This document shows positions 5,836 to 13,383 of a stretch of 13,383 nt of DNA, one piece after another. Within the stretch, counting starts at the first letter, position 1. Each line of letters begins with the position of its first letter. The notes below the pieces were generated by a model. It worked only from the letters and a program-made list of their open reading frames with translations. It was not told the DNA's origin and did no database searches. The translations under genes and the position numbers were made by a program. Origin of the DNA: Cellvibrionales bacterium UBA2511 (GTDB taxonomy: Bacteria > Pseudomonadota > Gammaproteobacteria > Pseudomonadales > Porticoccaceae); the NCBI GenBank assembly GCA_002341315.1, contig DDNV01000091.1, positions 718-14,100 of the forward strand, written 5' to 3'.

Positions 5836-6309
5836 TCAGAGTCCCAGAGCCGAGAGACCGGGGTAATCCATTGGCCGAACTCCCGGCGACCAGTCGAATT
5901 TTCTTTCAGCTTCAGTGATGGGTATATCGTTGATACTGGCATAACGGGTTTTCATCAGGCCATTTTTGGCAAACTGCCAGTTTTCATTGCCGTATGAGCG
6001 AAACCAGTTATCCTCCCCATCGCGCCATTCATAGGCAAATCGCACCGCAATTCTGTCATCACTAAATGCCCATATTTCCTTGATCAACCGGTAGTCCAGC
6101 TCGCGTAACCACTTGTTTTCCAGAAATGTAACAATCTCATCGCGACCACAGAGAAACACTGACCGGTTGCGCCAGCGGGAATCCTCCGTATAAGCCAGCG
6201 ACACCAATGCCGGGTCTTTGGTATTCCAAGCATCCTCGGCCCTGCGCACCTTGAGCACGGCGTCCTCAAATGTAAACGGGGGCAACGGTGGCTTCAGTGG
6301 TTCATCCAT
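5836..6309 (-). CDS. DUF1348 family protein, NTF2-like fold (last gene of the cyn operon)
   Basis: 157-residue protein with the conserved DUF1348 pattern: [21 protein letters not shown] near the N-terminus, SRWRNR (residues about 48-53), [41 protein letters not shown], and the C-terminal PGLSALGL. The family adopts the small alpha+beta cone of the SnoaL/NTF2 superfamily, which often holds a hydrophobic ligand pocket. No biochemical role is established that I know of. The start is supported by GAGGAGAAG just upstream. It begins 57 nt after the cyanase stop on the same strand with no terminator visible between, so it is probably co-transcribed with cynABDS. That links it to cyanate or nitrogen metabolism by context only. 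It has no signal peptide and is presumably cytoplasmic. Confidence 0.88.
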
Positions 6310-6366: not shown

Positions 6367-6807
6367 TCACCAGCTCTTGTAGGGTAGAAACTTGCCGTTC
6401 AGGGTCAGCAACACCCGGTCACCTTTGGGGTCTTCAATCTTGTCGACTTCCATGGAAAAATCGATGGCGCTCATGATCCCGTCACCAAATTTTTCCTGAA
6501 TAACCTCTTTCAGAGTATCCCCGTAGACCCCAACCACCTCGTAAAGCCGGTAGATCAACGGGTCTGTCGGCACCGACTTGTCCCAGTTTTTTGTTGGATA
6601 GCTCGCCAGTGCAGTGGCAACTTCCGGACCCAGACCCAGGTAGTCGGCAATTGCTTTCGCCTTTTCCGGTGGGGCACTGTTCATGCCGAGACAGGCGGAG
6701 GTCAGCCACACCGTCGACATACCCAGATCATCGGCCATGGTCTCCCAGCTCAAACCCTTGGCCAGCTTGATACTGATAATGGTTTCAGTCATGGATACTT
6801 TGTTCAT
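6367..6807 (-). CDS. cynS: Cyanate hydratase (cyanase)
   Basis: Catalyses cyanate + bicarbonate to carbamate + CO2, with carbamate breaking down to ammonia, so cyanate is detoxified and becomes a nitrogen source. At 146 residues it is about ten shorter at the N-terminus than the E. coli enzyme (156). The active-site triad is present with the exact E. coli spacing: R87, E90 and S113 correspond to R96, E99 and S122, in PLIYRLYEVVGVYGDTLKE and EKFGDGIMSAIDF. The N-terminal 70 residues form the POU/HTH-like domain of cyanases; the C-terminal domain ends in LTLNGKFLPYKSW. The family works as a decamer in the cytoplasm. An AAGGAG site precedes the ATG at 6807, and the gene starts 20 nt after cynD. 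A second in-frame ATG at residue 6 would give a slightly shorter protein. No cynT carbonic anhydrase is in the window to supply bicarbonate. Confidence 0.98.
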   Translation of the reverse strand: MNKVSMTETIISIKLAKGLSWETMADDLGMSTVWLTSACLGMNSAPPEKAKAIADYLGLGPEVATALASYPTKNWDKSVPTDPLIYRLYEVVGVYGDTLKEVIQEKFGDGIMSAIDFSMEVDKIEDPKGDRVLLTLNGKFLPYKSW

Positions 6808-6827: not shown

Positions 6828-7715
6828 TTAGATAGCAGCCTTCAGGCCTGCCGACTGTTCACTTTGTGGATGAATTTCAACAGAGGGGTCTACCTCCTGT
6901 GTGGCCCCGCCAACCTGCCCTGCAGAGCCCGACAATTGCCCGGAACGTTTCACTAGGAAATTCACCAGGTAATTGCGAATCTTGTAGTAGGCAGGATCCT
7001 CAATAATATTCGCGCGGTTGCGCGGGCGGGGGATATTGATCTTGACGGATTCGGCCACTCTGGCGTGGGGACCATTAGTCATCAACAGCACCCTGTCTGC
7101 CAGGAGTATGGCCTCGTCGACGTCGTGGGTAATCATGAAAACGGTCTGCTGGGTTTCACTCCATATTTTCAGCAGTTCATCCTGAATGACCCCCCGGGTC
7201 AGCGCATCAAGCGCACCAAACGGCTCATCGAGCAGTAACAGCTTGGGACTGGTGGCAAAGGCCCGGGCAATACTGACACGCTGACACATGCCGCCGGACA
7301 ATTCGGATGGCTTGCGATGAAGCGCCCCGGATAACCCGACCATTTCCAGGAAGTGACTGCTGTGGGCGTCCACTTTGGCTTTATTCCACTTCGGCCACCT
7401 CGCCTTGACCCCAAAACTGACATTCTGAAGAGCCGTTAGCCAGGGCAGCAAGCTGTAATTCTGAAAGACCACACCGCGATCAAGGCTCGGTCCGGAAGCC
7501 TCCTTGTTGTCCATGATCATGGTACCTGTGGTGGGGGTCTCCAATCCCGCCATCACATTTAAAATGGTGGACTTTCCACAGCCCGAGTGACCGATAATGC
7601 AAACAAATTCCCCTTTGTCGATGCCGATGTTGGCACCTTCAAACACCACCAGGTCCTGCTCTTTTGAAGGATAGACTTTAGAAAGCCCTTCGATACTGAC
7701 GAAATGTCGACTCAT
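6828..7715 (-). CDS. cynD: Cyanate/nitrate-type ABC transporter ATP-binding subunit
   Basis: 295-residue ABC ATPase of the NrtD/TauB/SsuB/CynD family that powers import through the adjacent permease. All nucleotide-binding elements are intact: Walker A GHSGCGKST (42-50), Q-loop Q85 in VVFQNYSLLPW, signature LSGGMCQR (139-146), Walker B LLLLDEP with D163/E164, and switch H197 in ITHDVDEA. The family-typical signature is LSGGM(R/K)QR; here the variable position is Cys. After about residue 250 comes a Gly/Ser/Gln-rich tail that is not part of the ATPase core. The ATG lies 3 nt after the cynB stop, with GAGG within the end of cynB as ribosome binding site. The substrate is assigned as cyanate because the gene sits in the order ABDS with cyanase; by sequence alone nitrate, taurine or sulfonate would be equally possible. 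Confidence 0.92.
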   Translation of the reverse strand: MSRHFVSIEGLSKVYPSKEQDLVVFEGANIGIDKGEFVCIIGHSGCGKSTILNVMAGLETPTTGTMIMDNKEASGPSLDRGVVFQNYSLLPWLTALQNVSFGVKARWPKWNKAKVDAHSSHFLEMVGLSGALHRKPSELSGGMCQRVSIARAFATSPKLLLLDEPFGALDALTRGVIQDELLKIWSETQQTVFMITHDVDEAILLADRVLLMTNGPHARVAESVKINIPRPRNRANIIEDPAYYKIRNYLVNFLVKRSGQLSGSAGQVGGATQEVDPSVEIHPQSEQSAGLKAAI

Positions 7716-7718
7716 GGG

Positions 7719-8546
7719 CTAATCCTCGTATTGCACCAGTTTCGTCACAGCTGCCAGGGTCATATCCAGCAACATACCGACGATACCAATCATCAAAATG
7801 GAAAAAATAACGCTGTTCAGATCCAGATTATTCCACTCGTTCCAGACGTAATAGCCGATACCGGTTCCACCCACCAGCATCTCGGCAGCGACAATCACCA
7901 GCCAGGCGATACCAATGGAAATGCGCATTCCGGTAAGAATAGTGGGCGCTGCCGCCGGTAGAATCACCAGAAAGGCCGTTTTCAATGGACTCAGCTCATG
8001 GGTACGGGCCACCTTGATCCAGTCGGTGCGGACATTGGCCACGCCAAAGGCGGTATTGATCAACATGGGCCAGATGGAACAGATAAAGATCACAAAAATG
8101 GCTGATCCCTCCGAGTCCCTGATGATGAATAGAGCCAAGGGCATCCAGGCCAGCGGTGAGATGGGACGCAGTACCTGGATAAAAGGATTGAGTGCCTTGT
8201 GCATCAGAGGCGACATGCCAATAACAAAACCCAGCGGTATCGCAATCAACGCCGCCGCCAGATAGCCGGTCAGCACCCGATAGAGGGAATAGGCCAACTG
8301 GATACCGATACCTTTGTCATTGGGACCGGCATCGTAGAAAGGGTCACTCAGCTCATGCCAGGCGTGGCTGAACACCTGGGACGGGGGTGGAACGCGGGCC
8401 TCCTGATCCGCGCCGCCCATCATCCGTTCATATTCCGACAACCCCGTACTGGCCGCAGGGGCCTGATTCATCGCCTCCCAGATGCCGAGCCCAACCAGTA
8501 ACAGCAGCAGCGAGAGCAGGGTTGCCTTCATATTCAGTGACGCCAT
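7719..8546 (-). CDS. cynB: Cyanate/nitrate-type ABC transporter permease
   Basis: 275-residue inner-membrane permease of the NrtB/SsuC/TauC type (BPD_transp_1). A first membrane segment lies at about residues 7-22, followed by a periplasmic stretch and further hydrophobic segments. The cytoplasmic EAA-type coupling loop sits around ARTHELSPLKTAFLVILPAAAPTILTGMRI, and GIAWLVIVAAEMLVGGTGIGYYVW is the family's C-terminal signature region. The open frame extends 63 codons upstream into cynA, but that extension is not homologous-looking. I chose the ATG at 8546 because it sits 1 nt after the cynA stop and has AGAGGG at a good distance. A later ATG at 8531 lacks a ribosome binding site. Near-contact with cynA and cynD indicates translational coupling within one operon. 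Confidence 0.92.
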   Translation of the reverse strand: MASLNMKATLLSLLLLLVGLGIWEAMNQAPAASTGLSEYERMMGGADQEARVPPPSQVFSHAWHELSDPFYDAGPNDKGIGIQLAYSLYRVLTGYLAAALIAIPLGFVIGMSPLMHKALNPFIQVLRPISPLAWMPLALFIIRDSEGSAIFVIFICSIWPMLINTAFGVANVRTDWIKVARTHELSPLKTAFLVILPAAAPTILTGMRISIGIAWLVIVAAEMLVGGTGIGYYVWNEWNNLDLNSVIFSILMIGIVGMLLDMTLAAVTKLVQYED

Positions 8547-8547
8547 G

Positions 8548-10014
8548 TCATACCCTCTTGATGGCAAAGCTGTTGATGTATTCCTCGGGCTCGTTGTAAT
8601 CAAACGTCTTGCCCATAATGATGTGTTTTTTGTAGGTGGTCGCCGGTGGTGTATAACCCAGCTCCTCCATGACCTTGCCGGTTTCCGATGCCACGTAGAC
8701 CTGCTCGGCGATCTTCTTGTAGTCCACATCACCACTGATATAACCCCAGCGTTTCATCTGGGTGAGTATCCATACCGCCATGGAGTGCCAGGGGAAGGGA
8801 TCAAAATCAATGCGGTCGGGAACGTCGTAAATCTTCTCCTCCAACCCATCCACATAGCGACCCGTCAGAACCTGCCTGACCACCACTTCCGGCTGATTGA
8901 GATAGTTTTTCGGCGAGATGGCCCGGGCGATTTCTTCACGGTTTTCCGCTTTGGCAGAAAAATGGGTGGCATCCACAATGGCCCTGAACAGAGCTGCATA
9001 GGTATTGGGCATCTCCGTGGCGAACTTCTGGCTACAGGCAAAGGCACAGCAGGGGTGGCCCTCCCAGATATCCTTGGTGAGAATATGCAGAAAACCGATC
9101 TTTTCGAAAACAGCACGCTGGTTGAATGGATCCGGCGACAGGTAACCATCCAGGTTGCCGGCCCGGAGGTTGGCCACCATTTCCGGTGGCGGCACGACCC
9201 GGATCTGAATATCCTGATCCGGATCCAGCCCATGCTCCGCCACGTAATAGCGCAGCAGGAAGTTGTGCATGGAATAATCAAAGGGCACCCCGAATTTGAA
9301 GCCCTTCCACTGTTTCGGGTCGCGCTTATCCTTGTGCTTGTTGTGGAGCACAATGGCCTGACCGTTGATGTTTTCCACGGCCGGCATGATGTAAGGGGTC
9401 GCGGTTGATCCCGCCCCCATGGACATGGCCAGCGGCATGGGAGTCAGCATGTGAGAGGCATCGTATTCCCCATTCAGGGACATATCCCTGGCCACCGCCC
9501 AACCGGCTGTCTTGATCACGTCCACGTCGAGGCCATACTTTGCATAGAAACCCATTGGCTGCGCCATAATAATCGGCGTGGCACAGGTAATTGCCACAAA
9601 ACCCACTTTCAGTTTGGTTTTCTCCAGTGGACCCATCGACTCCTTCACCGCCGCTTTCACTTTTTCCAGCGGGATCATGCTGCCGAGCACCGTGGCCAGG
9701 GTACCGCCACCCATCAACCGGATAAAATTTCGACGACTGGTATCGTTGTGCCCAAAAACACCGCGCACAATGGCACTTTCCACTGCCCGGTCGAGCAAAT
9801 CTTCAGAACTGTTGAAGGACAGCTCCCCTGCTGCCGTCGATTGGCTGTGGCCTTCACCCTGTTCAGCCTGTTGCTCCAACAAAACCAGGCGCTGGTCGTC
9901 GGTAAGACCGCCGGGGTTGACAGACTCGGCCTGACATAACCTGCAGGAACAATCATTGGTGTGCGTGAGGCTGGTATCGGCATCAAACGGGTTACCTAAA
10001 CTTTTCGTCGCCAT
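8548..10014 (-). CDS. cynA: Cyanate/nitrate-type ABC transporter substrate-binding protein with Cys-containing N-terminal extension and internal Tat motif
   Basis: 488-residue periplasmic binding protein of the NrtA/CmpA/CynA family. The binding domain runs from about residue 125 (KVGFVAITCATPIIMAQPMG) to the end and includes VPPPEMVANLRAGNLDGYLSPDPFNQ and GHPCCAFACS, both typical of this family. Upstream is an unusual 93-residue stretch: DCSCRLC (C22, C24, C27), a Gln/Glu-rich region, then a twin-arginine motif SRRNFIRL (R94, R95) followed by a moderately hydrophobic segment to about residue 115. The frame opens at 10059, but I use the ATG at 10014 because AGAGGAAA precedes it at normal spacing and MATKS is a natural start. 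It is the first gene of the operon, downstream of a sigma-54 promoter. Cyanate as ligand is inferred from cynS; nitrate, bicarbonate or nitrile-type ligands cannot be excluded from sequence. Confidence 0.9.
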   Translation of the reverse strand: MATKSLGNPFDADTSLTHTNDCSCRLCQAESVNPGGLTDDQRLVLLEQQAEQGEGHSQSTAAGELSFNSSEDLLDRAVESAIVRGVFGHNDTSRRNFIRLMGGGTLATVLGSMIPLEKVKAAVKESMGPLEKTKLKVGFVAITCATPIIMAQPMGFYAKYGLDVDVIKTAGWAVARDMSLNGEYDASHMLTPMPLAMSMGAGSTATPYIMPAVENINGQAIVLHNKHKDKRDPKQWKGFKFGVPFDYSMHNFLLRYYVAEHGLDPDQDIQIRVVPPPEMVANLRAGNLDGYLSPDPFNQRAVFEKIGFLHILTKDIWEGHPCCAFACSQKFATEMPNTYAALFRAIVDATHFSAKAENREEIARAISPKNYLNQPEVVVRQVLTGRYVDGLEEKIYDVPDRIDFDPFPWHSMAVWILTQMKRWGYISGDVDYKKIAEQVYVASETGKVMEELGYTPPATTYKKHIIMGKTFDYNEPEEYINSFAIKRV

Positions 10015-10150
10015 GATGTATTTCCTCTTCGTTTTGTAGCTAACGCTGTGGCAGCGCACTGTGCTGGTGCGCTGAACCCTGAGAACCGCTCTTGGACGGG
10101 CAGCGGCGTTCTATCAAACCCTGCTTGTTCGCATTGATAGCAACTGCTGC
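10015..10150 (-). other. Predicted structured 5' leader of the cyn mRNA
   Basis: If transcription starts about 12 nt after the -12 element, the cynA leader is about 136 nt long and holds three inverted repeats. These are CAGCGCAC/GTGCGCTG (10052-10059 with 10067-10074, 8 bp, 7-nt loop), AGAACCGCT paired with AGCG-(GC bulge)-GTTCT (10082-10090 with 10102-10112), and CTATCAA/TTGATAG (10111-10117 with 10134-10140). The second and third share bases 10111-10112, so they compete slightly. No T-run follows any of them and no known riboswitch is recognised. The ribosome binding site (AGAGGAAA) lies just outside the last hairpin. Confidence 0.4.
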
Positions 10151-10161
10151 CCTACTACATC

Positions 10162-10176
10162 GCAACTTTGGTGCCA
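10162..10176 (-). promoter_or_regulatory. Sigma-54 (-24/-12) promoter of the cynABDS operon
   Basis: On the minus strand TGGCACCAAAGTTGCG (10176 down to 10161) matches the RpoN consensus TGGCAC-N5-TTGC at every core base. The invariant GG (10175-10174) and GC (10163-10162) are separated by exactly 10 bp. The predicted start of transcription is near 10150, giving a 136-nt leader to cynA. The divergent gene encodes a sigma-54 activator with an intact GAFTGA motif, and an IHF site and palindromic enhancer sites lie upstream at fitting distances. Confidence 0.9.
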
Positions 10177-10193
10177 ACCCTGCTGACAACCGC

Positions 10194-10206
10194 CAAATAT
10201 TTGATT
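10194..10206 (-). promoter_or_regulatory. Integration host factor (IHF) binding site
   Basis: Minus-strand AATCAAATATTTG matches the IHF consensus WATCAANNNNTTR at every position, within an A/T-rich stretch. Its centre is about 50 bp upstream of the predicted cyn transcript start, between the sigma-54 promoter and the enhancer palindromes. IHF commonly sits there to bend DNA so that the activator can contact polymerase. Confidence 0.7.
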
Positions 10207-10244
10207 TAAAAAGATAAACAACTGGCAACAAGCCGCCATGGCAT

Positions 10245-10260
10245 CTACGAAAAGTCGTAG
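10245..10260. promoter_or_regulatory. Enhancer (UAS) palindrome 1 for the cyn regulator
   Basis: Perfect inverted repeat CTACGA-AAAG-TCGTAG, the best of three ACGA-N4-TCGT sites. Its centre is about 102 bp upstream of the predicted cyn transcript start, the usual range for sigma-54 activator sites. The 14-bp stretch ACGAAAAGTCGTAG is repeated exactly in the next site, 17 bp on. Confidence 0.72.
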
Positions 10261-10263
10261 TTC

Positions 10264-10277
10264 ACGAAAAGTCGTAG
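10264..10277. promoter_or_regulatory. Enhancer (UAS) palindrome 2 for the cyn regulator
   Basis: ACGA-AAAG-TCGT (10264-10275) followed by AG; identical over 14 bp to site 1 but with TTC in place of CT before the left arm, so the palindrome is shorter. Its centre is about 119 bp upstream of the predicted cyn transcript start and 17 bp from site 1. Confidence 0.7.
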
Positions 10278-10285
10278 ACAAAAAA

Positions 10286-10297
10286 ACGATTTTTCGT
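10286..10297. promoter_or_regulatory. Enhancer (UAS) palindrome 3 for the cyn regulator
   Basis: ACGA-TTTT-TCGT keeps both half-sites and the 4-bp spacing of sites 1 and 2 but with a different spacer. Its centre is 22 bp (about two helical turns) from site 2 and about 141 bp upstream of the predicted cyn transcript start. It lies nearest the regulator gene and may also serve autoregulation. Confidence 0.55.
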
Positions 10298-10302
10298 CGT
10301 TA

Positions 10303-10330
10303 TTGGCCCGAAATTTGTTAGCTGTATTGA
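10303..10330 (+). promoter_or_regulatory. Candidate promoter(s) of the divergent regulator gene
   Basis: Two overlapping readings exist. TGGCCCGAAATTTGTT (10304-10319) matches the 16-bp sigma-54 consensus at 14 positions, but the -12 GC is GT, which usually weakens such promoters. TTGGCC (10303-10308) with TATTGA (10325-10330, 16-bp spacing) is a weak sigma-70 possibility. Either would start transcription about 20-30 nt before the ATG at 10360. The enhancer palindromes end only 6 bp upstream, so bound activator could repress or activate its own gene. Confidence 0.3.
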
Positions 10331-10359: not shown

Positions 10360-12243
10360 ATGCAGGACGAACGGTTTTTCTATTATTCCGCCACCGCACA
10401 GCTGGTGATCGACCCGATTGAGGACCGGGTCCTGTTCGTCAACCAGGAGGCCTGCCGACTCCTACACAGGGATGTCATTGAGATTCAGTCCGGCCGGGCC
10501 AGTCAGCTATTCGCACCCTACCTGCCGGCGCTGATCCTGTTCACCCAGGAACTGATCGAAAAGGGGCGGGGCTGGTGTGACCACCTGCTGGTGCAATCGG
10601 CCATCGGGGAAGTCCGCCTGGAGGTCAATGGCCGCTGCTCTGATTCCAGCGGCCAACCTCAACTCTTCCTCGGTTTGCAAAGGGCCGATGACCTGGAACT
10701 GTTGCGTGAACGCTCCAGTGCCGAGCGACACTATCTGTCGGGTATCGGCCACTGGAACAGGGTGTCCCAGGTGTTCCAGGAGTTTGAGCGGGAAAACCAG
10801 CTGCTGCTGGATGCAGCCGGTGACGGCATCTACGGGGTGGAGGCCAATGGGATAACCACGTTCGTCAACCCCGCGGCGGAGCGGATTCTCGGCTACCGGG
10901 CGGAGGAACTGGCCGGCAGGAATATGCACAACATGGTGCACCACTCCCACGCGGATCACTCACATTTCAATATGCAGGAGTGCCCCATTTTCGAAGCGTT
11001 CCGGGACGGCACGGTTCACCGGGTGGAGGACGACACATTCTGGACCAAATCCGGCAAACCCATCGACGTGGAATACACCAGCACACCGGTCAGGGACAAC
11101 GGCTTCATTGTCGGCGCAGTGGTGATCTTTCGCGATATATCCCAGAAAAAAACCGACCGAAAACGGCTCCTGGAAGCACTGGCAGAAGTGGAGAAACTGA
11201 AAAACCAGCTGGAACTGGAAAATGCCTATTTGCAGGAAGAAATCAACTCTGAATTCAATCATCACCAGATCATCGGTAAAAGTGGTGCCGTGCAGCATAT
11301 TCTGCAAAAAATTGAACTGGTTGCGCCGACAGACTCTACTGTGCTCATCAGTGGTGAATCCGGCACCGGCAAAGAACTGATTGCCAGAGCGATCCACGAA
11401 ATGAGCCACCGCTCCAATCGCTCACTGATCCGGGTCAACTGTGCAGCCATTCCGGCGGACCTGTTCGAAAGCGAATTTTTCGGACACACCCGGGGCGCTT
11501 TCACCGGCGCCACCAACGATCGACCCGGTCGGTTTGAGCTGGCTAACGGCGGCACACTTTTCCTCGACGAGGTCGGTGAAATCCCCCTGCACCTCCAGGG
11601 CAAGCTGCTGCGGGTTTTACAGGAGCAGCAGTTTGAGCGCGTGGGCGAGTCGAAAACCCGCCGTGTGGACGTTCGCATCATCACTGCCACCAACCGCAAT
11701 CTCAAGGAACAGGTACAGCGGGGCCAGTTTCGTGAAGACCTTTATTTCCGACTCAATGTTTTCCCGATTGAATCGGTACCACTGCGCGAGAGGAGAGAGG
11801 ATATCCCACTCCTGACCCAACATTTTTTGAAAAAAAGCTGCACCAGAACCAACAAGCAGGGCCTGAAAATTTCACTCAGTGAGCTGGAAAAACTGAAGGA
11901 TTATCACTGGCCGGGAAATATCCGCGAACTGGAAAACGTAATTGAACGCCAGATCATACTTGCCCAGGGACCGACACTGAGATTCAGCGATCTGTTGACC
12001 AGAGATCAACAAAACGTTGCCCGGGTTGGCGAGGAACCGGACAGCAGTGTGCTGACGGCTTCCGACCTTAAACAACAGGAACGCCGCAATCTGCTGATGG
12101 CACTGGAAAAATGCCATGGCAAGGTGTTTGGCCATGACGGGGCGGCCCAGCTATTGGGCATCAAACCCACCACACTGGCATCGAGGATCAAGAAATATCA
12201 AATTGACACCAGGCTTTTTAAACAGGCTTCCACCAAACATTAA
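10360..12243 (+). CDS. cynF: Sigma-54-dependent transcriptional activator, PAS-PAS-AAA+-Fis (regulator of the cyn operon)
   Basis: 627-residue bacterial enhancer-binding protein. A divergent PAS-like region (about 1-110) and a second clear PAS domain (about 145-262, ending VGAVVIFRDIS) are followed by a coiled-coil-like linker (about 270-300). The AAA+ domain has Walker A GESGTGKE (332-339), the sigma-54-contacting GAFTGA loop (379-384, intact), Walker B GTLFLDE (398-404) and FREDLYFRLNVF. A Fis-type helix-turn-helix lies near the C-terminus (about 594-614, GAAQLLGIKPTTLASRIKKY). PAS2 carries a cluster of six histidines between residues 190 and 202, then C208. No receiver domain is present, so it senses a ligand or redox state rather than phosphorylation. 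Divergent from cynA, with palindromes and a -24/-12 promoter between, it almost surely activates cynABDS. I recall a sigma-54 regulator named CynF with cynABDS in Pseudomonas pseudoalcaligenes; the symbol is by analogy. The ribosome binding site is weak. Confidence 0.88.
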   Translation: MQDERFFYYSATAQLVIDPIEDRVLFVNQEACRLLHRDVIEIQSGRASQLFAPYLPALILFTQELIEKGRGWCDHLLVQSAIGEVRLEVNGRCSDSSGQPQLFLGLQRADDLELLRERSSAERHYLSGIGHWNRVSQVFQEFERENQLLLDAAGDGIYGVEANGITTFVNPAAERILGYRAEELAGRNMHNMVHHSHADHSHFNMQECPIFEAFRDGTVHRVEDDTFWTKSGKPIDVEYTSTPVRDNGFIVGAVVIFRDISQKKTDRKRLLEALAEVEKLKNQLELENAYLQEEINSEFNHHQIIGKSGAVQHILQKIELVAPTDSTVLISGESGTGKELIARAIHEMSHRSNRSLIRVNCAAIPADLFESEFFGHTRGAFTGATNDRPGRFELANGGTLFLDEVGEIPLHLQGKLLRVLQEQQFERVGESKTRRVDVRIITATNRNLKEQVQRGQFREDLYFRLNVFPIESVPLRERREDIPLLTQHFLKKSCTRTNKQGLKISLSELEKLKDYHWPGNIRELENVIERQIILAQGPTLRFSDLLTRDQQNVARVGEEPDSSVLTASDLKQQERRNLLMALEKCHGKVFGHDGAAQLLGIKPTTLASRIKKYQIDTRLFKQASTKH

Positions 12244-12471: not shown

Positions 12472-13383
12472 ATGAATAATCGATTGAAAGAAGCGGCGGA
12501 CAGCGTATTGACGAATACGGTCGCAGAGTCCGGTGGGGCACCGGGCGTTGTAGCCATGGTCACGGACAAGGGGGCCAATGTCTATGAAGGGACTGCCGGG
12601 GTGAGAGAAATGGGCAAAACAGAGCCCATTGCCACCGATTCCGTGTTCGCCATTTTTTCCTGCACCAAGGCCCTGACCGGCACTGCCTTGATGCAGCTGG
12701 TCGAAGAAGGTCTGGTAGCTCTGGATGATCCCGCCAGTGACTATGTACCCGACATTGCAGAGATTCAGGTACTCGACGGTTTTGACAGCAACGGCCAGCC
12801 AAAGCTGAGGGCACCGAAATCAGATATCACGATCAATCAACTGATGCTGCATACCGCCGGTTTTGGTTACGAGTTCTTCAGCCACGATGACCTGGCATTC
12901 CGCACCGCAAGGGAAACAGCTTCGGTGGTATCCAGCACTTATGACGGCATCAAATCCGTACTGCTGCACGACCCGGGAGAACGCTGGATGTATGGCGTCA
13001 ACCTCGATTGGGTGGGCAAGATTGTCGAAGCAGTGCGAGGCAAACGCCTGGGCGAGGTCATGCAGGAACGCATCTTTAACCCACTGGGCATGACAGACAG
13101 CGCCTTCACCCTGACCCCCGCCATGCGATCACGACTGGCCAGCCTGCACACCCGCGCCGAAGATGGCCAGCTGGCACCCTGGGATCTGGTTCTCCCGCAA
13201 CCGCCGGAAATGGATATGGGAGGGCACGGGTTGTACGGCACCGTACCGGATTACATGAAATTTATCCGGATGATACTGAATGATGGCGAGGGGCCAGATG
13301 GCCGTGTACTGAACAAAGAAACCGTAGAAAAGATGTCCAGAAATGGGCTGGCGGGTTTACAGAGTGGCGGCTGGACAACCTCG
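12472..13383 (+). CDS. Serine hydrolase of the class C beta-lactamase / EstB fold, 3' end cut off
   Basis: 304 codons run to the window edge without a stop. The family is usually 380-430 residues, so perhaps a quarter is missing. The penicillin-binding/esterase catalytic marks are present: S63-C-T-K66 (nucleophile and general base), Y174-G-V-N177 (the YxN motif), and GGHGLYG as the third, H-x-G-like element seen in esterase-type members. MLHTAGF and HDPGERWMYG are further conserved blocks. There is no N-terminal hydrophobic segment, so it is probably cytoplasmic and more likely an esterase or amidase-type enzyme than a resistance lactamase. The start at 12472 has GAGAAGGA about 10 nt upstream; an in-frame ATG at 12454 would add six residues but overlaps that site. 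A 228-nt gap separates it from the regulator, and I see no clear promoter or terminator in it. No functional tie to the cyn genes is evident. Confidence 0.9.
   Translation, partial: MNNRLKEAADSVLTNTVAESGGAPGVVAMVTDKGANVYEGTAGVREMGKTEPIATDSVFAIFSCTKALTGTALMQLVEEGLVALDDPASDYVPDIAEIQVLDGFDSNGQPKLRAPKSDITINQLMLHTAGFGYEFFSHDDLAFRTARETASVVSSTYDGIKSVLLHDPGERWMYGVNLDWVGKIVEAVRGKRLGEVMQERIFNPLGMTDSAFTLTPAMRSRLASLHTRAEDGQLAPWDLVLPQPPEMDMGGHGLYGTVPDYMKFIRMILNDGEGPDGRVLNKETVEKMSRNGLAGLQSGGWTTS

Follow-up and report, generated by a model that had tools for sequence, protein, structure and literature searches.

How does a sigma-54 activator encoded back to back with a cyanate operon find and open the promoter of that operon, and does the DNA between the two hold an operator that can be recognized in other genomes? 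We asked this of a 13,383-nt stretch of Cellvibrionales DNA (hereafter the window), which has the CynFABDS arrangement, with cynF divergent from cynABDS and a cyanase gene present (Pfam, NCBIfam). In P. pseudoalcaligenes CECT5344, according to the available text of PMC6627978, CynF is essential for cynABDS, cyanate induces and ammonium represses the operon, the authors attribute the ammonium effect to the Ntr system, a putative sigma-54 promoter precedes cynA, a sigma-70 promoter is assigned to cynF, and the cyn genes of P. mendocina are 97–98% identical. The window resembles that locus in gene order, divergent CynF and putative sigma-54 promoter of cynA; the main text of PMC6627978 mentions no palindrome, enhancer or NtrC. 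Further, according to the predictions of a 2025 survey, cyanate lyase is under sigma-54 control in alpha- and gammaproteobacteria (available text of PMC12316311). The kind of system and the sigma-54 promoter of cynA are already known; the question here is what lies between promoter and activator gene.

Results

The cyanate locus and its activator

The genes of the locus, with the family models that identify them, are as follows.

6367–6807, minus strand: cynS, cyanase; Pfam cyanate lyase, NCBIfam cynS equivalog above cut-off
6828–7715, minus strand: cynD, ABC transporter ATPase; Pfam, NCBIfam ntrCD subfamily above cut-off
7719–8549, minus strand: cynB, ABC transporter permease; Pfam, NCBIfam ntrB above cut-off
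8548–10014, minus strand: cynA, ABC transporter substrate-binding protein; Pfam NMT1-like; start codon picked by us, with an in-frame GTG further upstream
10360–12243, plus strand: cynF, sigma-54 activator of 627 amino acids; Pfam PAS region, AAA+ domain with GAFTGA, Fis-type HTH

The substrate of the transporter is ambiguous by family model because CynB and CynD exceed the NCBIfam nitrate cut-offs (ntrB and ntrCD). The protein encoded beside the promoter is a bacterial enhancer-binding protein (bEBP) with an AAA+ domain and a Fis-type HTH (Pfam), and the GAFTGA loop ascribed to it beforehand is present in the translation. A structural model of CynF residues 1–290 has two PAS-like domains (mean pLDDT 83, pTM 0.46, weak linker), for which the best Foldseek matches are PAS proteins such as DosP, PpsR and FixL, with low whole-chain TM-scores. 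We note that His190, His194 and Cys208 of the second PAS domain (190–208) are invariant in 32 sequences, possibly as a metal, redox or ligand site. A DUF1348 (SnoaL-like) gene at 5836–6309 (Pfam) lies immediately 3′ of cynS on the same strand and is possibly cotranscribed with it, and a beta-lactamase-family (serine hydrolase) gene (Pfam) starting at 12472 downstream of cynF extends past the window end at 13383.

Three palindromes at fixed spacing

The original prediction described a 345-nt gap between cynF and cynA that contains a sigma-54 promoter, an IHF site and three ACGA-N4-TCGT palindromes. We confirmed the length of the gap and every one of these elements at its coordinates, and we add two further elements (the first and the last below).

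10056–10070, either strand: NtrC-type palindrome GCAC-N7-GTGC; centre about 87 bp into the predicted transcript; sole match in the window
10162–10176, minus strand: predicted cynABDS −24/−12 promoter, GG at 10175–10174 and GC at 10163–10162; perfect core, at a set distance from the array
10194–10206, minus strand: predicted IHF site; consensus match, likewise oriented and placed in 19 of 28 gammaproteobacterial representatives
10247–10258, either strand: candidate enhancer site A, ACGA-N4-TCGT; exact match
10264–10275, either strand: candidate enhancer site B, ACGA-N4-TCGT; exact match
10286–10297, either strand: candidate enhancer site C, ACGA-N4-TCGT; exact match
10304–10318, plus strand: second −24/−12-like element, TGGCCCGAAATTTGT, GT instead of GC at −12; faces cynF

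The three palindromes are the only exact copies in the window, and none of 200 dinucleotide shuffles reached three. With 10162 taken as the C of −12, the predicted cynA start falls at about 10150 and the site centres at −102.5, −119.5 and −141.5, in agreement with the positions given earlier. The genome (2.63 Mb, 86% complete) has 12 ACGA-N4-TCGT sites, of which the 9 outside the cyn gap are all solitary. Among five same-genus genomes, changes within the sites are confined to N4.

To define the conservation of the array we scanned GTDB species genomes for CynF and took the best 80 of at least 587 candidate loci (52–74% identical), so that more distant CynF fall outside the coverage. Two loci (L053 and L067) had no upstream DNA, so that 79 of the 81 sequences, the window included, supplied regions; from these, 35 representatives with CynF identity below 80% were drawn, and counts over representatives below refer to this set. 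In some loci the estimated cynF start cut the array short, and later counts therefore extend to the tblastn match. When all 3328 gapped palindromes (256 half-sites at 13 gap lengths) were ranked, ACGA-N4-TCGT came first, occurring in 31 of 35 representatives and at least twice in 19; TCGT-N5-ACGA, the junction of adjacent sites, came second (20/35). A three-site array with at most 6 mismatches in 24 core positions, at spacings of 16–18 and 21–23 bp, was found in 34/35 representatives and 78/79 regions, with an A–B spacing of 17 bp in 31 of the 34 (18 bp in 3) and a B–C spacing of 22 bp in 27 (23 bp in 4, 21 bp in 3). By comparison, none of 700 block-shuffled regions fell below 7 mismatches for this geometry. 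Site A is better kept (exact in 26/35) than B (17/35) and C (18/35); individual arrays range from three exact sites in a P. mendocina strain (L018) to 5 mismatches in L009.

Conservation beside orthologous regulators had been proposed as a test of the motif, and on rank, frequency and spacing the palindrome passed it. Judged by conservation, the element set lies far beyond chance, and its reading as an enhancer motif for CynF-type regulators is supported. The predicted extended form, CTACGA-N4-TCGTAG, did less well: it is complete at the first site of the window but incomplete at the other two, and the CT flank of the first site differs in 5/5 aligned same-genus genomes. As a general motif it was rejected, being complete in only 4 of 102 pooled sites, the consensus of which is ACGA-wAtw-TCGT with weak flanks. 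The core of the predicted motif is therefore conserved but its flanks are not, and the clade that it serves proved wider than the cyanate regulators.

The one representative with CynF and cynA but a poor array (10/24 mismatches) is L060, which, having more than 6 mismatches, was excluded from the IHF and cynF-side counts, leaving 34 representatives. We observed that its CynF orthologue has the helix KPTTLYSR and that its gap has GTGC/ATGC-type half-sites, rather than ACGA, in a 17/23 register. The best unrestricted score for a shifted array was equalled by 3 of 100 shuffles and the proposed candidate ranked second, so that an in-register array with shifted half-sites is suggestive only; possibly helix and site have changed together.

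The predicted sigma-54 promoter and IHF site

The perfect-core promoter that had been claimed holds up: TGGCACCAAAGTTGC (minus strand, 10176–10162) carries the GG-N10-GC core at −24/−12 and is the sole zero-mismatch match to the pattern in the window. In 29 of 34 representatives, 73–78 bp separate the centre of site A from the −24 GG; the distance is 64 bp in 2 and 90 bp in 2, and in L014 the picked promoter is at 124 bp and ties with an equally scored element at 77 bp. All 34 have GC at −12, a count partly built in because the promoter picker rewards GC there. Over all 79 regions, the 64–66-bp group comprises Bradyrhizobium-type and some Pseudomonas loci and the 89–90-bp group Halomonas-type loci, and in three loci a good promoter is missing from the usual distance (L051, L052 and L076, the first two with little upstream DNA). 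Going from 65 to 76 bp adds roughly one turn of the helix; going on to 90 bp does not amount to a whole turn.

Between array and promoter, the claimed match to the IHF consensus is likewise exact (AATCAAATATTTG, minus strand, 10206–10194). Alone it would be weak, because the consensus is matched once more in the window and at least two matches arise in 8 of 200 shuffles; position 6 of the IHF match is G in the five same-genus genomes. Across loci, WATCARNNNNTTR with at most one mismatch occurs on the same strand 28–32 bp from the −24 GG in 19/28 gammaproteobacterial representatives and in 0/6 alphaproteobacterial ones (grouping assigned by hand). At other same-strand offsets between 15 and 74 each position is matched in at most one locus, and on the opposite strand offset 43 is matched in four. 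The stricter WATCAANNNNTTR was found in 12/34 at 29–31 and in none at the remaining same-strand offsets from 22 to 69. In the P. mendocina strain the array is one turn closer, and the distance from IHF match to promoter is unchanged.

No sigma-70 promoter was found in the gap by a consensus scan, a null that says little because shuffles average just 0.5 matches. Zero Rfam matches for cis-acting RNA reached gathering scores, and the fold of the 137-nt cynA leader barely beats shuffles (z −1.66; 12/200 equally low).

The array follows the regulator, not cynS

A cynS search of 150 genomes gave 20 loci in 19 genomes, some of which are already among the CynF loci (G527, for example, is apparently the genome of L037), so that the samples are partly shared. 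Ten of the cynS loci have a CynF orthologue, and nine of these carry the array at 3 mismatches or fewer; the tenth (G417) has 6. In contrast, no array was found in 11 loci without a CynF orthologue within the stretch (10 cynS loci and E. coli cynTSX), a class judged within the stretch rather than the rest of the genome and including one (G501) that ends at a contig edge. The best triples there have 8–11 mismatches, compared with 7–10 in 15 shuffles of 16-kb stretches. E. coli K-12 cynTSX is itself a cyanase operon with a divergent regulator gene, and its best triple has 11 mismatches (9 in a looser form); its CynR is a LysR-type regulator. We conclude that it is the regulator, rather than cynS as such, that the array accompanies.

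Scanning 369 and 398 genomes (some in both) for paired sites by DNA alone led to the same neighbour gene. Pairs were found in 11 and 16 genomes, 24 in total. At least one array is flanked within 1.5 kb by a CynF-like gene in 22 of the 24, and the two exceptions, L135 and L147, both have a G+C-rich N4. A backwards control pattern matched 9 and 8 genomes in the two scans, and it is therefore the neighbour gene, not the bare pair count, that constitutes the evidence. Six of the 24 genomes (L082, L087, L088, L089, L090 and L146) have neither cynA nor cynS in the 3-kb locus. One genome (G137) has two more arrays (L094 and L095) about 4 kb from the regulator.

In a 60-row tree of AAA+/HTH sequences, with L146 left out and the backbone partly unresolved, L126, L127, L128, L129 and L131 group with the cyn regulators (support 100/99) and L130 falls outside that branch. 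The L131 gene has a single exact site. As to gene neighbourhoods, those of three cyn-less regulators and of L131 include an HPP membrane protein, ChrR-type cupins, a CMD-family protein and a 2Fe-2S flavin oxidoreductase; the CynF-like, cyn-less L126, L127, L128 and L131 stand near HPP, cupin, CMD, nitroreductase-like or flavin oxidoreductase genes. Among 19 other bEBP loci (L107–L125), one had a single site and 18 had none. Regulators of the cyn branch have the recognition helix KPTTLxSR or nearly so; L130 has HPNTLRSR with the array present, and L106/L132 has PPSTLRSR with the array absent. From this we infer a helix-to-half-site code, with L130 speaking against the simplest form of it.

Two further elements of the control region

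The region had been called complete. The elements claimed for it are present, but a second sigma-54-like element and an NtrC-type site also belong to it. Past site C, TGG-N8-TTG facing cynF occurs in 19/34 representatives, compared with a mean of 0.25 and a maximum of 3 in 1000 shuffles and with 0 on the opposite strand; its GG lies 4–7 nt beyond site C. A looser form is present in 24/34, and the base after the G of −12 is then A in 11, T in 7, C in 4 and G in 2. Over all loci the element was found in 32/78. Ten further genomes were checked apart, and it was present in 5/6 gammaproteobacterial ones (one, G527, apparently the genome of L037) and in 0/4 others. The element of the window is the same in the five same-genus genomes, bar one T for C. 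Since the array abuts this element, its occupancy probably feeds back on cynF, with either sign.

The NtrC-type palindrome emerged post hoc from the ranking of gapped palindromes. GCAC-N7-GTGC is exact in 8/35 representatives (Markov null mean 0.24, largest 3 of 300), and all eight lie 32–56 bp before the cynA start codon, downstream of the predicted transcript start. With one mismatch, 15/35 have it in the leader stretch where about 2 are expected, leaving 20/35 regions with no good match; not one of those 15 is alphaproteobacterial. Compared with the NtrC consensus TGCACC(A/T)4TGGTGCA (available text of PMC4987338), the site of the window matches in half-sites and gap, but the T-rich centre and outer T/A agree only in part. 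The leader site probably adds nitrogen-status control in many gammaproteobacteria, and the ammonium repression described in the relative (available text of PMC6627978) fits such a site.

Discussion

We consider it highly likely that the region serves the cyanate operon as enhancer and promoter and that CynF dimers bind the three palindromes. The array is very probably the docking site of CynF because other bacteria show the same layout next to related regulators. In the mechanism that we propose, CynF dimers would sit on the three ACGA-N4-TCGT palindromes via the Fis-type HTH, and an inducer (cyanate in the published relative) acting on the PAS region would lead to assembly of the AAA+ ring, for which three dimer sites offer a natural scaffold. 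IHF would then bend the DNA so that the GAFTGA loops meet sigma-54 polymerase at the −24/−12 element of cynA, and ATP hydrolysis would open the promoter. Nitrogen status is probably a further input, through NtrC at the leader site, in many gammaproteobacteria. A similar layout is known from NorR/norVW, where three sites between divergent regulator and target have been shown to scaffold a hexamer (available text of PMC2941729). The NorR motif is GT-N7-AC (available text of PMC4987338) and its sensor a GAF domain, whereas CynF has ACGA-N4-TCGT and a PAS region.

Could the array serve chiefly the other gene? It sits directly before the conserved element facing cynF, as an operator for cynF autorepression would, with cynA then activated from other DNA or from solution. 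This is unlikely, given that the array also stays at a set distance from the cynA promoter, the IHF site lying between them, and that it is still present in alphaproteobacterial loci without the cynF-side element. That a different regulator such as NtrC binds the array, as the ammonium repression of the published relative (available text of PMC6627978) might suggest, seems quite unlikely: the array follows CynF (9/10 vs 0/11) and is found beside CynF-like genes away from cyn genes, and the leader has a separate match to the NtrC consensus (available text of PMC4987338), which differs from the array. As for the palindromes being chance or a local repeat devoid of function, the matches of the backwards control in 9 and 8 genomes do mean that bare pair counts prove little, but rank, spacing, neighbour gene and the split by CynF presence all contradict it, and we regard it as exceedingly improbable.

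A subtler alternative concerns the register. FhlA of E. coli and Salmonella has a related HTH with the helix KRTTLLSR, and its consensus CATTTCGTACGAAATG shares the half-site TTTCGT/ACGAAA with CynF, in reversed order and without the gap (available text of PMC4987338); the true dimer site might accordingly be the unit between palindromes, TCGT-N-ACGA, and TCGT-N5-ACGA does rank second (20/35). We think this very unlikely. The N4 gap is uniform at the three sites, whereas the gaps between sites are 5 and 9–11 bp; an FhlA-type site, in which TCGT is followed directly by ACGA (TCGTACGA), occurs in 0/35 regions; and lone palindromes survive where their neighbours have decayed. Conversely, no ACGA-N4-TCGT was found at E. 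coli hyc-hyp-fhlA, where the best triple has 8 mismatches.

Beyond CynF docking at the palindromes, the region may act as a two-sided sigma-54 switch with a helix/site code of a wider bEBP clade, a fuller scheme to which we give somewhat less than an even chance. Sigma-54 polymerase would dock in a weak or inert form at the cynF-side element of gammaproteobacteria, where −24 and spacing are kept and the GC of −12 is usually replaced. Bound CynF would block this polymerase or fire it weakly, and in that way adjust its own production, at the same time as it activates cynA via the loop at the IHF site; NtrC at the leader site would contribute a nitrogen signal. In parallel, the KPTTLxSR helix together with ACGA-N4-TCGT would form the code by which a wider clade recognizes its DNA, at targets beyond cyanate.

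A published CynF operator was not found in the searchable literature (open papers without their supplements), where one of six motif strings matched, in a paper on another subject. Within that literature we found no description of the operator, of its geometry or wider use, or of the cynF-side element and the leader site. A defined operator would allow cyanate regulons in alpha- and gammaproteobacteria to be annotated from sequence, and it suggests a cyanate reporter for cyanide-waste strains. For bEBPs it offers a case for comparing the recognition helix with the half-site and the enhancer geometry across many genomes. Finally, the second sigma-54-like element and the NtrC-type site raise the questions of how an activator may control itself and how inducer and nitrogen signals may meet at one promoter.
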